Assembly (NCBI GenBank): GCA_025924435.1
Contig: JAICIL010000277.1
Location: 1-6,116, forward strand
Direction of reading: 5' to 3'
Source of the DNA: Chloroflexia bacterium
GTDB lineage: Bacteria; Chloroflexota; Chloroflexia; Thermomicrobiales; JALYUS01
Length of the DNA: 6,116 nt
Both the position numbers and the translations under genes were made by a program. Under the pieces are notes generated by a model. The model saw nothing but the letters and a program-made list of their open reading frames with translations, made no database searches and had not been told where the DNA came from. This document shows positions 1,223 through 6,116 of this stretch, in pieces; within the stretch, counting starts at the first letter, position 1; each line of letters opens with the position of its first letter.

Positions 1223-2344
1223 TTACCCGAAGAGCAGGCAGACGGGCGTCGGAACATGGGCGATGTCGCCCGTCGCGGTCAATGTGCCGGTGGACTGATC
1301 AATCCGGAAGGTGACGACGTTGTCGGTATCCTGATTCGCGACGAGCAGGAAGGTTCCCGTCGGGTCGAGGGTGAAACTGCGCGGGTTCTTCCCCTGCGTC
1401 GGCGCGTGGCCGCGCGCCGTCAGATTCCCGCTGTTCGGGTCTATCGCGAAGAGCGCGATGCCGTTGTAGCCACGCACGGAGCCGTAGAGGAACCGACCGG
1501 ACGGATGCACCGCGATTTCCGCGCCGCTGCTCGCGCCGGTGAAGTCGGCGGGCCGGATGGAGATCGTCTGGAGAGGCGCGAGCGTGCCGCGCGCCGCGTC
1601 CCAGGCGAAGGCGTCAATTGTCGAGTCGAGCTCGTTGATGACATAGACGTGGCGGTTCGTCGGGTGGAAGGCGATGTGGCGCGGCCCCGCCCCCGGCGCG
1701 GATCGCCCGCACGACTGCTCCGCCGCCCCGTTCTCGGTGGTGACATCGTGCGCGTTCAATTTCCCCGTCGCCGCATCGAGGCGGTAGACGAGCGTCTTGT
1801 CTATGCCGAGGTCAACGAGCAGCGCGTACCGCCCGGAAAGGTCGAAGGTGATCATGTGCGCGTGCGGCCCCGCCTGTCGCGCTTTGTTCGGCCCCGACCC
1901 CGTATTCTGCACGAGATCGCCCATCGCGCCGAGATTGCCGCCCCCTTCGATGGGATAGACCGCGACATTGCCGCTGCCGTAATTCGCCACGAGGAGGTAC
2001 GCGCCGCTCGGGTCCACCGTGAGGTGGGCGGGGAATGTGCCGCGCGTCGGCCGCGCGTTGCGCGGCGTCAGGCTCCCCGTCGCGGCATCGAGCGCGAAGG
2101 CGCTCGCGCCGCCGCCCGGCTGCCCGTCGTGCGTCTCCGTCTCGTTGACGGCGAAGAGGTGGCGACGGGCCGGATCAATGGCGAGAAAGGAGGGATTGAC
2201 CACGCCCGCGACCGTCCGCACATGCGCCAGCGCGCCGGACGCCGGGTCCATCCGGTAGACGTAGATGCCCTCCGCCGTGCCGTGCATCGCCGGTTCGGTG
2301 TAGGTGCCGACGTAGAGGAAAGGCGCGCTGCCGGAAGCGGTCAT
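1223..2344 (-). CDS. Lactonase family protein (YbhE/6-phosphogluconolactonase-like seven-bladed beta-propeller)
   Basis: This is a 373-residue protein. The start is ATG 2344-2342, preceded on its strand by GGAGAG about 8 bases upstream; an upstream ATG at 2434 adds 30 residues unlike the family. It opens with LYVGTYTE, typical of the Lactonase family (PF10282). It then shows repeated propeller-blade signatures of the type HP/DPSG-hydrophobic-N: AIDPARRHLFAVNE (56-69), LTVDPSGAYLLVANYGSGN (108-126), PHAHMITFD (160-168), GPRHIAFHPTNRHVYVINE (220-238), AEIAVHPSGRFLY (275-287) and PRSFTLDPTGTFLLVANQ (321-338). Length is close to B. subtilis YkgB and somewhat longer than E. coli Pgl (331). Known members hydrolyse 6-phosphogluconolactone in the cytosolic pentose phosphate pathway, but many family members act on other or unknown lactones, so no symbol is given. 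No signal peptide is seen. It is transcribed alone, convergent with the ferritin-like genes. Confidence 0.93.
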   Translation of the reverse strand: MTASGSAPFLYVGTYTEPAMHGTAEGIYVYRMDPASGALAHVRTVAGVVNPSFLAIDPARRHLFAVNETETHDGQPGGGASAFALDAATGSLTPRNARPTRGTFPAHLTVDPSGAYLLVANYGSGNVAVYPIEGGGNLGAMGDLVQNTGSGPNKARQAGPHAHMITFDLSGRYALLVDLGIDKTLVYRLDAATGKLNAHDVTTENGAAEQSCGRSAPGAGPRHIAFHPTNRHVYVINELDSTIDAFAWDAARGTLAPLQTISIRPADFTGASSGAEIAVHPSGRFLYGSVRGYNGIALFAIDPNSGNLTARGHAPTQGKNPRSFTLDPTGTFLLVANQDTDNVVTFRIDQSTGTLTATGDIAHVPTPVCLLFG

Positions 2345-2415
2345 CGGTTGCACTCTCCATTCTTGCCGCGCGCATCGCGATCCGCGCCCGGCGGTTGGCG
2401 GTCCGTCCGACACGC

Positions 2416-2444
2416 ATTCTTGCGCTCCCGCCAACGCGCGTCAA
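2416..2444 (-). promoter_or_regulatory. Candidate sigma70-type promoter of the lactonase gene
   Basis: Read on the minus strand, TTGACG (2444-2439; 5 of 6 to TTGACA) is followed after exactly 17 bases by AAGAAT (2421-2416; 4 of 6 to TATAAT). The expected transcription start, near 2409, would leave a leader of about 65 bases before ATG 2344. Spacing and location are good; the -10 box is imperfect. Not experimentally known. Confidence 0.45.
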
Positions 2445-2448
2445 TCGT

Positions 2449-2497
2449 GGGAGGTTCGCGGTTCGGAGAGGGGACTTCCTCGAACCCCGAACCTCCC
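2449..2497. promoter_or_regulatory. Long interrupted dyad between divergent genes, candidate operator
   Basis: Arms 2449-2465 (GGGAGGTTCGCGGTTCG) and 2481-2497 (CGAACCCCGAACCTCCC) are reverse complements at 16 of 17 positions, with a 15-base spacer. Each arm itself holds a directly repeated hexamer (GGTTCG twice; CGAACC twice), so there are four half-sites. It lies 4 bases upstream of the lactonase -35-like box and 8 bases upstream of the TATATT on the other strand. A site between divergent promoters fits a regulator-binding operator better than a terminator. As RNA it could also form a long hairpin. No regulator gene is present in the window to pair with it. Confidence 0.5.
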
Positions 2498-2505
2498 CGC
2501 TGGCA

Positions 2506-2511
2506 TATATT
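2506..2511 (+). promoter_or_regulatory. Possible -10 element for the plus-strand gene cluster
   Basis: TATATT stands out in very GC-rich surroundings, 57 bases before the ATG of the first small gene. No convincing -35 box lies 16-18 bases upstream; that region (near 2483-2488) is inside the right arm of the dyad. The promoter, if real, would be weak or depend on an activator. Confidence 0.3.
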
Positions 2512-2568
2512 GTGCGGTTTCCTCTCTTTGCCACGTGCATTCGCGCGGCGGAACGAGAGGGGAAATCC

Positions 2569-2850
2569 ATGCCACACGAACACGGCGATGTACCCGGCCC
2601 GACGACCAAAGGGGGCGAACGGCCCGAGGGCAGTGCGCGGCCCGGCCAGCGCGCCGCCGAATCGCAGCCTTCGCCGCCCGCGCCGCTCGGCTACGGCGAG
2701 GAGGCGAGCGAAAACCTCGGCACGACGACGGCCCCGCCACCGCCCGCGCCGGACAAATACCACGACCCGAGCGAGGGAGAATCCCCCGTGCGGACGAGTG
2801 CGCCGCACCACGGCGGCGGTTACATGCTCATCCCCGGCGAGGATTCCTGA
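2569..2850 (+). CDS. Small Pro/Gly/Glu-rich hypothetical protein
   Basis: This is a 93-residue protein from ATG 2569, with the strong ribosome-binding site GAGAGGGGA (2555-2563) a few bases upstream; this decides the start over longer in-frame choices. I do not recognise a family. It contains about 18 Pro, many Gly, Glu and Ser, no Cys and no hydrophobic segment long enough to cross a membrane, so it is probably intrinsically disordered. A PPPP run lies at 56-59. The C-terminus GGGYMLIPGEDS is its only hydrophobic patch and might be a short binding motif. It is the first gene after the divergent regulatory region, and the following genes point the same way, 125 and 82 bases apart. The SD quality supports translation; function is unknown. 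Confidence 0.6.
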   Translation: MPHEHGDVPGPTTKGGERPEGSARPGQRAAESQPSPPAPLGYGEEASENLGTTTAPPPPAPDKYHDPSEGESPVRTSAPHHGGGYMLIPGEDS

Positions 2851-2912
2851 TCGCGCTGGCGGCGCGCGTCGCGGCACGGCATTTGCCATCAGCGAACTGA
2901 GGTCACCCGGCG

Positions 2913-2931
2913 CATGGAGAAATCCTCCATG
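2913..2931. other. Short perfect inverted repeat upstream of small helical gene
   Basis: CATGGAG (2913-2919) and CTCCATG (2925-2931) pair perfectly with the 5-base loop AAATC. No U-run follows. It lies 62 bases after the preceding stop and 44 bases before the next ATG. It might be a weak terminator, a leader hairpin or an operator half-pair. Confidence 0.35.
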
Positions 2932-2975
2932 GCCGTCCGTAGCAGGGACCGTACCGTAACGAAAGGAGCGCATTG

Positions 2976-3287
2976 ATGCAGCAGCAGAGCAGCGGCGGGA
3001 CACAGGGTAAGAGCGGCCAGACAAGCGGCATGCAGGGTCAGCAGTTCCACGGTCAGGGTATCTATCCCGTCTCCGATCATGATTATAACATCATCTCAGC
3101 CCTCGCCAACGAGTTGCAGGGTTTGGAGAAGTTCCAGGAGTACATGCAGAATGCCGGACAGAGCAGCAAATTCTGGCAAGATGCACTGAACCTGAAGAAG
3201 CAACTGGCCGAACTCTTCACCCACGAACTCGCCGAGCACGCGAAGGAGGGGCACTTCGGCTCCGGCCAGAAGCGCACGATGCAGTAA
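2976..3287 (+). CDS. Small Gln-rich helical hypothetical protein, possibly CotF/ferritin-like
   Basis: This is a 103-residue protein. I choose ATG 2976, 7 bases after GGAG in GAAAGGAG (2961-2968); a TTG immediately before it is in frame but less likely. Residues 1-29 are a Gln/Ser/Gly-rich flexible head. Residues 31-92 look like two amphipathic helices separated by a short turn (DHDYNIISALANELQGLEKF, then QDALNLKKQLAELFTHELAE), followed by EGHF. This helical hairpin resembles short spore-coat CotF-like or ferritin-like bundle proteins, but I see no full metal-ligand set and make no firm family claim. Composition (Gln, Lys, Met) differs from its Arg/Ala-rich neighbours. It is separated by 82 bases, including a strong hairpin, from the acidic protein downstream. 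Confidence 0.72.
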   Translation: MQQQSSGGTQGKSGQTSGMQGQQFHGQGIYPVSDHDYNIISALANELQGLEKFQEYMQNAGQSSKFWQDALNLKKQLAELFTHELAEHAKEGHFGSGQKRTMQ

Positions 3288-3319
3288 CGCCGCACACCGG
3301 CAATGCGAGGATGCATACG

Positions 3320-3345
3320 GGCCCCTACCGGTTGCGGTGGGGGCC
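3320..3345 (+). terminator. Stem-loop after the small helical gene
   Basis: GGCCCCTACCG (3320-3330) pairs with CGGTGGGGGCC (3335-3345) over 11 bp (one U-G pair) with loop GTTG. It starts 32 bases after the stop at 3287 and ends 9 bases before the AAAGGA of the next gene. No U-run follows, so it may attenuate or stabilise rather than terminate. Confidence 0.4.
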
Positions 3346-3369
3346 GCGATTGTGAAAGGAACTCTTTTG

Positions 3370-3870
3370 ATGGACGAGGCACGCGAACGCGACACCATCC
3401 CCGGCGATGCCTACGCGGACAACCGCACGCTCCCCGACGAGACCGACCCCGCGACGGGCGAATCGGCGGACGACGCGCTCGAAGCGACGCGGACCGAACC
3501 CGAATACCTGATGCCCACCGAGGACGCCACCCCGCAGCCGGTCAATTGGTCCGTCAACCCGACGCAGGACAGCACCCAGGAGGCGGAGTGGGAGGAACCG
3601 TTCGACGCGCCGAACAACAACGCCACCGGCGGCGACGACGAGGATATGCTCGCCGCCGAGGGTTCGATTGATTCGGGCGTGGATCGCGTCGTGGACGAGT
3701 CCTACTTCGAGAACGAGGAGGACGATCTGAACGACGCCGAGGAGGAACCGCTCCGCCGCGCCGCACTGCCGGATGATCCGCACCCCGGTTCGAACGTACG
3801 GGACATCGCGGATGCGGATATACTGCCCCCGGATGAGGAGACGACGCGCGGCGCATCGTCGCGCCGCTGA
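3370..3870 (+). CDS. Highly acidic, probably disordered hypothetical protein
   Basis: This is a 166-residue protein from ATG 3370. AAAGGA at 3355-3360 lies 9 bases upstream; a longer in-frame GTG start at 3337 would lie inside the upstream hairpin. I count 49 Asp/Glu, 11 Arg and no Lys or Cys, a net charge near -38. Pro, Asn, Gly and Thr are frequent and there are few hydrophobics, so most of it should be disordered. The densest acidic stretch is residues 109-126 (DESYFENEEDDLNDAEEE). No known domain is recognised. The gene is followed after 26 bases by the DUF1997-like gene, suggesting one transcript. Possible roles such as binding cations or basic proteins are speculative. Confidence 0.72.
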   Translation: MDEARERDTIPGDAYADNRTLPDETDPATGESADDALEATRTEPEYLMPTEDATPQPVNWSVNPTQDSTQEAEWEEPFDAPNNNATGGDDEDMLAAEGSIDSGVDRVVDESYFENEEDDLNDAEEEPLRRAALPDDPHPGSNVRDIADADILPPDEETTRGASSRR

Positions 3871-3896
3871 CGACGGAAGACGGAAAAGGACACCAC

Positions 3897-4451
3897 ATGC
3901 CACTCGCCGCGCGGGACGATCAATTCACGCTCCGGGGGGCGTTCGCCGAGCGGCTGACCCTCGCCGGGCCACGACCGTCCGTCTACAATTTCCTCGCGGA
4001 CGCCGAGACGCTGCTGCCGCTCGTGCCGAACGTGGCGCGGATCGTCGCCCATGCGGGCGGCGCGTACCGGCTCGTCTTCGCGCCGGTCGGGGCGGCGGGC
4101 TTGCAGTTCGTCCTCGAACTCGAATTGGGCGTCTCCGGCGACGGCGCGCGCACCGTGACGCTCCACTCCGTCCCGACGGACATTCCCCCACTCGAACCGA
4201 AGGGCATCCTCGGCGACTTCACGGCCACCCTCGCCCTGGCCGAACATGGCGCGGAGACGGTGATTGACGGCAATGCCACGCTCACCGTGGTGGATACCAT
4301 CCCGCCGATGCTGCGCCGGATGCCCCGGATGCTCCTCGAACGGACGACCTCGCTCGCCGTCGGCAAGCAGATGGAGACGATTGGCCGCGACCTGATGCGC
4401 AACGTCGCCGCCGCCTACCCCGACTGGCAGAAGAGCCACCCCGACGCTTGA
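3897..4451 (+). CDS. DUF1997/SRPBCC-like lipid- or ligand-binding fold protein
   Basis: This is a 184-residue cytosolic protein from ATG 3897, with AAAAGGA (3884-3890) 6 bases before it. The pattern matches DUF1997 (START/SRPBCC-like): an opening beta segment, then GPRPSVYNFLADAETLLPLVPNVARI (helix and 'wing' with LP-LVP, split here as GPRPSVYNFLAD and AETLLPLVPNVARI, residues 24-49), YRLVFAPVGAAGLQF (57-71), a strand with LEPKGILGDFTATLALAE (99-116), and a C-terminal helix (PPMLRRMPRMLLERTTSLAV, 136-155) ending in PDWQKSHPD. The family is known from cyanobacteria and plastids as well as other bacteria and has no firmly established biochemical role. SRPBCC folds generally hold a hydrophobic ligand between sheet and long C-terminal helix. 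A terminator-like hairpin begins at its stop codon. Confidence 0.75.
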   Translation: MPLAARDDQFTLRGAFAERLTLAGPRPSVYNFLADAETLLPLVPNVARIVAHAGGAYRLVFAPVGAAGLQFVLELELGVSGDGARTVTLHSVPTDIPPLEPKGILGDFTATLALAEHGAETVIDGNATLTVVDTIPPMLRRMPRMLLERTTSLAVGKQMETIGRDLMRNVAAAYPDWQKSHPDA

Positions 4452-4480
4452 CGCGGGAATAGGCCCGCGTTTCACTTTGT
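4451..4480 (+). terminator. Probable intrinsic terminator after the DUF1997-like gene
   Basis: ACGCGGG (4451-4457) pairs with CCCGCGT (4464-4470) around a 6-base loop and is followed by the T-rich TTCACTTTGT (4471-4480). The first base of the stem is the last base of the stop codon. The stem is GC-rich, but the T-tract is interrupted. Confidence 0.6.
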
Positions 4481-4488
4481 AGAACGTC

Positions 4489-4525
4489 CTCCCCTTTCCT
4501 GCGGGGAAGGGGCCGAGGGGTTAGG
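4489..4525 (+). repeat. Intergenic palindromic repeat, copy 1
   Basis: CCCCTTTCC (4491-4499) pairs with GGGAAGGGG (4504-4512), one G-U pair, around a 4-base loop. It is followed by CCGAGGGGTTAGG (4513-4525). A second copy with the same order and the same 3' end occurs at 5581-5620. The copy lies wholly between genes, just before the SD (AAAGGAG, 4529-4535) of the SelW-like gene. The form resembles dispersed REP/MITE-like elements; only two copies are visible here. Confidence 0.75.
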
Positions 4526-4542
4526 CACAAAGGAGCATCACC

Positions 4543-4809
4543 ATGGCGAACCGTCTCCCGACCATCGGCATCGAATACTGCCACGAATGCGGCTACCTCG
4601 GCTTCGCGACGAAACTGGCGGAGGGGCTGCTGCGCACCTTCGAGGGGCAACTGGGCGGCGTGCTCATCATCCCCTCCACCGGCGGCGCATACGAGATCAC
4701 GCTCGATGGCCGTTCGATCTACTCCACCTTCGAGGAGGGGATGCCGACGCAGGACGAGGCGATTGAGCGCGTCCGCACCGTGCTGGCGTCGTCCGCAGTG
4801 ACGGCGTAG
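4543..4809 (+). CDS. SelT/SelW/SelH (Rdx) family protein, cysteine form
   Basis: This is an 88-residue protein from ATG 4543, with AAAGGAG (4529-4535) 7 bases upstream. It has the small thioredoxin-like Rdx fold pattern (PF10262): IEYCHECGYLGFATKLAEGL (10-29) with the redox motif Cys13-His-Glu-Cys16, then LGGVLIIPSTGGAYEITLDG (37-56) and a C-terminal helix (DEAIERVRTVLA). In animal SelW the second position of the motif is selenocysteine; here both codons are TGC, so no selenocysteine machinery is needed. Members are thought to act in thiol redox control, but bacterial substrates are not well defined. Tyr-Ser-Thr-Phe (60-63) replaces the aromatic residues often seen before the C-terminal helix. 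It is 13 bases upstream of trmD and probably co-transcribed with it. Confidence 0.9.
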   Translation: MANRLPTIGIEYCHECGYLGFATKLAEGLLRTFEGQLGGVLIIPSTGGAYEITLDGRSIYSTFEEGMPTQDEAIERVRTVLASSAVTA

Positions 4810-4822
4810 CGGTGCGACCGGC

Positions 4823-5368
4823 GTGCGCATTGACATCCTCACGATCTTCCCCGGCATGTTCGCGGGGGCGGGGCCGCTCGGCGCGAGCATCATCGGGCGG
4901 GCGGTGGAGCGGGGCATTCTCGATCTACGCGTCCACGACCTGCGCGACTGGACGACCGACCGCCACCGCTCGATAGACGACTATCCGTACGGCGGCGGCG
5001 CGGGCATGGTGATGAAAGCGCCGCCCGTCGTCGCGGCCATCGAGGCGACGCTGGGCGAGGATGTTGAGCGCGCGCCGCGCGTGCCGGTGCTGCTGATGTC
5101 CGCCGCCGGGCGGCCGTTCACGCAGGTGATGGCGCACGCACTGGCGGAGCGGGAGCGATTCATCCTCCTCTGCGCCCACTACGAGGGAGCGGACGAGCGG
5201 GCAATCGCCCTCGCCGTGACGGACGAGGTGAGCATCGGCGACTACGTGCTGACAGGCGGCGAACTGCCCGCGATGGTCATCACGGACGCCGTCGCGCGCC
5301 TCCTGCCCGGCGTGATCGAGGCGGAATCACTCGCCGAAGAGTCGTTCGCGGACGGCCTGCTCGAATAA
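4823..5368 (+). CDS. trmD: tRNA (guanine-N1)-methyltransferase TrmD, truncated by in-frame TAA
   Basis: TrmD uses S-adenosylmethionine to methylate N1 of G37 next to the anticodon in the cytosol, preventing +1 frameshifting. From GTG 4823 the frame reads MRIDILTIFPGMF, DYPYGGGAGMVMKAPP (53-68), LLMSAAGRPF (90-99), CAHYEGADER (117-126) and SIGDYVLTGGELPAM (137-151), which are the SPOUT knot and AdoMet-binding parts. It then has AVARLLPG (156-163), with Arg159 matching the catalytic Arg154 of E. coli. Codon 182 is TAA where Tyr is usual, giving 181 residues against about 250 for the family; the C-terminal tRNA-binding domain follows in frame. Glu173 stands where the catalytic Asp169 (E-D-S-F motif) is expected. 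No clear SD precedes the GTG; the preceding stop is 13 bases away, so coupling is likely. Family identity is certain; activity as encoded is doubtful. Confidence 0.95.
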   Translation: MRIDILTIFPGMFAGAGPLGASIIGRAVERGILDLRVHDLRDWTTDRHRSIDDYPYGGGAGMVMKAPPVVAAIEATLGEDVERAPRVPVLLMSAAGRPFTQVMAHALAERERFILLCAHYEGADERAIALAVTDEVSIGDYVLTGGELPAMVITDAVARLLPGVIEAESLAEESFADGLLE

Positions 5369-5569
5369 CCGCACTACACCCGCCCGCCGGAGTTTCGTGG
5401 CCTCGCCGTCCCGGAGGCGCTGACGAGCGGCAATCACGCCCGCATCGCCCGCTGGCGGCGCGAGCAGGCCCTGCTCCGCACCCGCGCCCGCCGCCCCGAT
5501 CTCCTCGCCCATGCCCCCCTCACCGACGCCGACCGCCGCTTCCTCGCCGAGCACGACGATGACTCCTGA
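5369..5569 (+). pseudogene. trmD: C-terminal part of TrmD, in frame after the internal stop
   Basis: Immediately after TAA 5366-5368, the same frame encodes 66 residues that are the expected TrmD C-terminal domain: [18 protein letters not shown], then [16 protein letters not shown] and [10 protein letters not shown], ending at TGA 5567-5569. There is no frameshift, deletion or second stop, and length from the GTG (248 codons) is normal. The segment has no plausible start of its own near the beginning and no SD. It is expressed only by read-through, or the TAA is a C-to-A base-call error for TAC. If the stop is real, the decay is very recent. Confidence 0.85.
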
Positions 5570-6116
5570 TTTCCGTATTTCTCCCCCTTCCCTCGGAGGG
5601 AAGGGGACCGGGGGGTTAGGAAATCTCCCCCCACCAATCACCACCGCCGATGCGCCGGATGCGGTGCGGATCGCGACGCCGGAGCAGGTGGCGATCACGC
5701 TGCCGCTCGCGGGCGTCGGGACGCGGCTGCTCGCCGCGCTGCTCGATGCGCTCGTGATGCTCGCGGTTATCCTCGCCGCGCTGATCGCGATTGCCCTCCT
5801 CGATAGCGTGATCGCGCTCCAACCGCGCGGCGTGGCGGCGGGATCGGTGCTCGGCGCGTTCACGCTCCTCTTCCTCTTCGGCTTCGTTTTCGCCTACTAC
5901 GCGGCGCTGGAACTCTTGTGGGACGGCCAGACGGTTGGCAAGCGCGCGCTGAAACTGCGCGTGGTGCGGGACGACGGCACGCCGGTGGATGCCGCCGCCG
6001 TGCTGGCGCGCACGGTCGTGCGGCTCGTGGATTTCCTCCCCGCCGGCTATCTCGTCGGCCTCGTCAGCATGATCGCGGACGGGCGGTCGCGGCGACTGGG
6101 GGACATCGTCGGCGGC
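5559..6116 (+). CDS. RDD family membrane protein, 3' end outside window
   Basis: The frame is open to the window edge, 186 residues from ATG 5559. The core begins [17 protein letters not shown] (36-52), followed by [13 protein letters not shown] (54-66) with the family Arg and Asp, hydrophobic segments at about 59-82 and 96-118, [17 protein letters not shown] (120-136), [11 protein letters not shown] (151-161) and [11 protein letters not shown] at the edge. These are the hallmarks of the RDD family (PF06271), inner-membrane proteins of mostly unknown function; some are linked to ion transport. The start is uncertain. ATG 5559 overlaps the trmD stop by 11 bases, but then residues 8-21 are encoded by a palindromic repeat. 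GTG 5664 begins exactly at the conserved core but has no SD. I give the longer form; the shorter is nearly as likely. Confidence 0.85.
5581..5620 (+). repeat. Intergenic palindromic repeat, copy 2
   Basis: CCCCTTCCCT (5584-5593) pairs perfectly with AGGGAAGGGG (5597-5606) around CGG and is followed by ACCGGGGGGTTAGG (5607-5620). It matches copy 1 (4489-4525) in order and in the 3' motif CCGRGGGGTTAGG, with a longer, uninterrupted stem. It starts 12 bases after the trmD stop at 5569. If the RDD gene starts at 5559 it is inside the coding region; if at 5664 it is intergenic. Confidence 0.78.

Follow-up and report, generated by a model that had tools for sequence, protein, structure and literature searches.

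The window, the whole stretch of 6,116 nucleotides that we analyzed (contig JAICIL010000277.1 of a Chloroflexia assembly), contains trmD together with genes for a lactonase-like propeller, a DUF1997 protein, an Rdx-family protein, and an RDD-family protein. Open frames run off the window at both ends, as would fit a short metagenomic contig, and no tRNA genes were found within it. Two neighboring frames, at 1-222 and 260-1150, resemble each other over 75 residues (41% identity), which suggests a tandem duplication; no Pfam match was found for either. Direct reading of the trmD frame (4823-5569, + strand) gave a GTG start at 4823, 181 sense codons, a TAA, 66 further sense codons, and a TGA. The features of the gene are as follows.

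4823..5365, + strand: trmD codons 1-181, the SPOUT domain and the first part of the C-terminal extension, from scores above the NF000648 and TIGR00088 cut-offs and from PDB alignments
5366..5368, + strand: in-frame TAA, codon 182, by direct reading; Tyr in relatives, with no stop in related loci
5369..5566, + strand: trmD codons 183-248, the remaining C-terminal extension, in frame and conserved, with NF000648 and TIGR00088 tail matches
5567..5569, + strand: terminal TGA of trmD, by direct reading; CGA at the equivalent place in the related genome G009

Residues 1-181 by themselves score above the trmD cut-offs of NCBIfam (NF000648, 221.1 bits against a cut-off of 220; TIGR00088, 205 bits against 195), and the 66-residue tail, searched on its own, aligns to the final part of both models (E values of 3e-17 for NF000648 and 1.7e-16 for TIGR00088), a match that is far beyond chance. 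When the two parts were joined with X at the stop, the reading matched the whole of each model, at 300.4 and 281.8 bits, respectively. The original prediction of 66 well-conserved TrmD codons in frame after the stop, followed by a TGA, is borne out by the frame reading and these matches. The standard code ends the product at residue 181, short of a complete C-terminal extension in one chain. Judged by the model matches, the gene is trmD by descent, and the product that the record encodes is an incomplete TrmD.

On sequence similarity, the closest relatives of the window are uncultured Thermomicrobiales, an order belonging to the Chloroflexota. The best homologues with a named organism come from metagenome-assembled Thermomicrobiales and Thermomicrobia (P0015 and P0020, 88% identical), and the best-scoring protein, P0001 (96% identical), comes from a 2,040-base metagenome contig. 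Another close TrmD homologue (P0014, 88% identical, 385 residues) also carries a PF00903 domain. In the best-scoring 48 of about 8,000 scored proteins, column 182 is Tyr without exception, which agrees with the claim that the TAA at codon 182 occupies the usual position of a Tyr; codon 182 is also the sole position of 248 at which the window has no counterpart among those 48 proteins. Among the 163 proteins listed (the best 120 of about 8,000 scored, from each of two protein searches, combined), the column is Tyr in 144, His in 8, Gly in 6, and Ala in 4, and is not reached in 1.

A list of proteins is by nature unable to show a stop at this column. The codon itself was read in the DNA of 112 related loci, 111 of them distinct (L001-L112; L053 and L081 are the same place, and L113 was omitted as the same place as L082). 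None had a stop at codon 182, which was TAT in 53, TAC in 40, CAT in 7, CAC in 5, TTT in 3, CCG in 2, and GGG in 2. Of these loci, L081-L112 gave direct readings for 32 genomes of the order; the other 23 matched genomes were judged by the internal stops that the search reported. No stop lay within the aligned stretch in 54 of the 55 matched genomes, where six matches were partial (G048, G032, G052, G058, G035, and G010) and three of these alignments (G032, G035, and G010) fell short of codon 182. Translation of the remaining candidate for an independent stop, in G041, placed the flagged TAA at the natural end of that gene, at codon 229 of the query alignment. Comparison with close relatives, which had been proposed as a check, thus found a sense codon at every codon 182 read, and the stop is private to the window among the sequences compared.

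A single C-to-A step from TAC to TAA had been suggested as the origin of the stop. This was not established, as the sister genome G009 has TAT at codon 182. Counted over seven predicted ORFs of the window, the Tyr codons are 27 TAC and 6 TAT; because G009 has TAT while these ORFs favor TAC, the ancestral codon may have been either.

G009 belongs to the same order (locus L053), and its TrmD is 89% identical to that of the window. An 11.7 kb contig of G009 is collinear with positions 1227-6115 of the window (identity 82% by BLASTN and 84% over the bases aligned globally), and positions 1-1226 did not align to it. In the global alignment, the lactonase (from its ATG at 2344), DUF1997, and trmD frames have no indels relative to G009, the ORFs at 2973, 3337, 4543, and 5559 contain only indels whose length is divisible by three, and no frameshift was found in any gene alignable with G009. 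G009 trmD has CGA in place of the terminal TGA, and its open frame is 256 codons long. The codon at 3355 is AAA in the window and TGA in the aligned G009 sequence, so the ORF listed as 3337-3870 may begin downstream of 3337. Near the start of the RDD-family gene lies a near-perfect palindrome, CCTTCCCTCGGAGGGAAGG, at 5586-5604, which overlaps 21 bases (about 5596-5616 in the alignment) missing from G009; no exact copy of it was found among the 145 loci searched.

The possibility of another trmD elsewhere, which the original prediction had raised, was pursued in relatives. Exactly one trmD match was found in 55 of 61 genomes of the order and none in the other 6, and by analogy a second trmD in the organism of the window is unlikely.

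We compared the two sides of the stop with related sequences. Relative to P0001, and with codon 1 excluded, there are 6 differences in the 180 residues that precede the stop and 1 in the 66 that follow. Relative to G009 trmD, the ratio of synonymous to non-synonymous codon differences is 39:13 before the stop and 5:12 after (Fisher p = 0.0012). We considered relaxed constraint after the stop and rejected it, as relatives that lack the stop also vary more in the tail, in keeping with the skewed counts: the best-scoring 12, all without it, show 0.168 differences per residue in the tail vs 0.073 before. Over the 66 residues of the tail, P0010 has 6 differences from the window and the other nine relatives in the range P0003-P0012 have 10 to 13; similar numbers are to be expected against P0001, the tail of which is that of the window except for one residue. 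Higher variation in the tail therefore looks like a natural pattern of the protein. The stop is isolated as well as private, and the frame around it is undecayed. With trmD giving no sign of decay on either side, comparison with its homologues points to a stop that is either an artefact or of very recent origin.

We consider it most probable, with a probability of about 0.6, that the TAA is an error at the level of a single base in this short environmental record. A single wrong base could have arisen by sequencing or assembly error, or as a consensus from few reads of a mixed population; the record would be a thinly covered metagenomic contig, and the gene of the living organism would encode a full-length TrmD methylating G37 of tRNA. 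Such an error would leave what was found: one private position among 248, few differences from P0001 on either side, no stop in any of the 112 loci (111 distinct) with one trmD each in the relatives, and alignment of the genes in 1227-6115 to G009 without a frameshift. The change itself may also fit. In a duplex-sequencing study (PMC6337315), C to A was the most increased class of heat-induced artefact and a signature of oxidative damage, and would apply here if the earlier codon was TAC, as the codon preference of the window supports; however, with the TAT of G009 as the starting codon, the change would instead be T to A and this argument would fall away. Artefacts of this kind were found only at 0-1% occurrence (PMC6337315) and would therefore reach a consensus only at thin coverage. 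Two further points weigh against an error. The record does not look conspicuously poor, with no second lesion where the window aligns with G009, and the skew from 39:13 to 5:12 can be read as relaxed constraint, although relatives without the stop vary more there too. A literature search for premature stops in metagenome-assembled genomes found no paper.

Given the absence of decay, a real nonsense mutation would have to be very young, and we regard this as a possible but clearly less probable origin of the stop. The cell would then make a 181-residue TrmD without most of the C-terminal extension. What such a chain would retain can be predicted from the alignments. Arg159 and Glu173 of the window occupy the positions of the catalytic E. 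coli residues Arg154 and Asp169, according to PDB alignments and column counts, with a numbering offset that fits both residues; Asp169 is the catalytic residue of both E. coli and H. influenzae TrmD. The Asp169 position (codon 173, 5339-5341) is Glu in the window and in 159 of the 163 listed homologues (Asp in 3, not reached in 1). Across the 112 loci it is Glu in 70 and Asp in 42, with Glu in all 32 loci of the order (L081-L112). In a truncated chain Arg159 and Glu173 would thus be present, but most of the C-terminal extension (the last 66 residues) would be gone.

Earlier work indicates what these parts do. Asp169 is reported to be required for methyl transfer (PMC5372744, PMC9508554), and an enzyme with Glu at this position had activity equal to wild type (PMC8643618). 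The residue is located in the C-terminal extension (PMC9508554), which is about 74-95 residues long (PMC9508554) and contacts tRNA from the other subunit (PMC5372744, PMC9508554); a review judged the SPOUT domain alone likely insufficient (PMC9508554). A real stop would take away the last 66 residues of this extension. The organism could then be largely deficient in m1G37 and survive slowly or through compensation, for example in proS, an outcome to which we assign the same tentative standing as to the mutation itself. There is precedent in E. coli, where, as reported in PMC8643618, trmD translational-knockout (stop codon) and catalytic mutants remained viable despite severe growth defects, the four worst grew on average 2.8-fold slower, and recovery came mainly via duplication or mutation of proS. 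These viable, slow mutants weaken the claim that TrmD is usually essential; a trmD null is not necessarily lethal on the evidence of that study, and a real, recent inactivation therefore stays in contention. Against it, no stop occurs at codon 182 in the 112 loci (111 distinct), and so slow a mutant would presumably rarely dominate a natural population.

The conserved tail is also what read-through of the stop would preserve. If the TAA were read through, or decoded by a Tyr-inserting suppressor tRNA, the gene would yield a full-length TrmD, but we consider this very unlikely. A programmed signal would be kept at the same place in relatives, and it was kept in 0 of 112 loci. Furthermore, a small predicted gene near trmD ends with the TAA at 3285-3287, a stop that G009 has at the equivalent position; the Rdx gene, which stops with TAG in the window, stops with TAA in G009. 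Because of these two gene ends, TAA is a terminator in this lineage. A general code change with TAA as Tyr is disfavored by the shared gene end near trmD, which also contradicts any stop-codon reassignment in which TAA no longer terminates. The same argument had been made earlier from three TAA stops, and it holds for the one at 3287, which is shared with G009; those at 222 and 1223-1225 lie outside the aligned stretch of 1227-6115.

A search for a tRNA-Tyr with a UUA anticodon had been suggested, and G009, the nearest genome, provided a partial answer. We scanned 25 of the 30 tRNA loci and two further stretches, within which the five omitted loci lie, and typed all 35 matches. None of these 35 tRNA genes had the TTA anticodon, in a genome that is incomplete and is not that of the window's organism, so the finding weighs weakly against a suppressor. 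The sole Tyr tRNA found has a GTA anticodon. G009 is taken to be incomplete because Ser, Ile, and Trp tRNAs are absent from the 35. Recoding thus has no positive support. Of the four explanations offered at the outset, an error and a very recent inactivation are the two left as likely.

The 181-residue piece alone scores above the trmD cut-offs, as would be expected of a functional short TrmD, or of a two-piece enzyme whose tail is made by re-initiation. We find this barely credible. Past the stop there is no in-frame ATG, GTG, or TTG, and the first CTG is at 5420; a two-piece protein is therefore unlikely. Six short homologues taken from the matches listed were examined for ends at this site, and none ended there: P0052 and P0080 are missing the N-terminus, P0121 stops short of the site, and the chains of P0159, P0145, and P0153 run beyond it.

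The finding is best explained as an ordinary one and not as a new way of reading the genetic code. We give little credence to the idea that this is a natural uncultured member of the Chloroflexota with a truncated single-copy TrmD, its loss of m1G37 compensated elsewhere, or that one TAA is read here as an amino acid. If the stop were real and fixed, the organism would be a natural bacterium without full TrmD, and the dispensability of m1G37 seen in the laboratory would become testable in nature. A single private stop in an environmental record should not be taken as evidence of recoding.

Set beside known systems, the gene resembles TrmD, tRNA (guanosine(37)-N1)-methyltransferase (TIGR00088, NF000648, PF01746), in matching over its full length, and it would be of normal length if the stop were passed over; it differs in having TAA at codon 182, where its closest relatives have Tyr, and in a recorded chain that stops at residue 181. 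With programmed read-through and stop-codon reassignment it has in common a conserved, in-frame coding sequence after the stop. In contrast to those systems, its stop is not common to relatives, TAA is the normal stop nearby, and no suppressor tRNA appears in the nearest (incomplete) genome, G009. A further likeness is to isolated in-frame stops in sequence records, whether from error or from recent nonsense mutation, two sources that sequence alone does not distinguish. We saw no difference between these and the stop of the window, which, like them, is a single codon, private to one sequence, with an intact frame around it.
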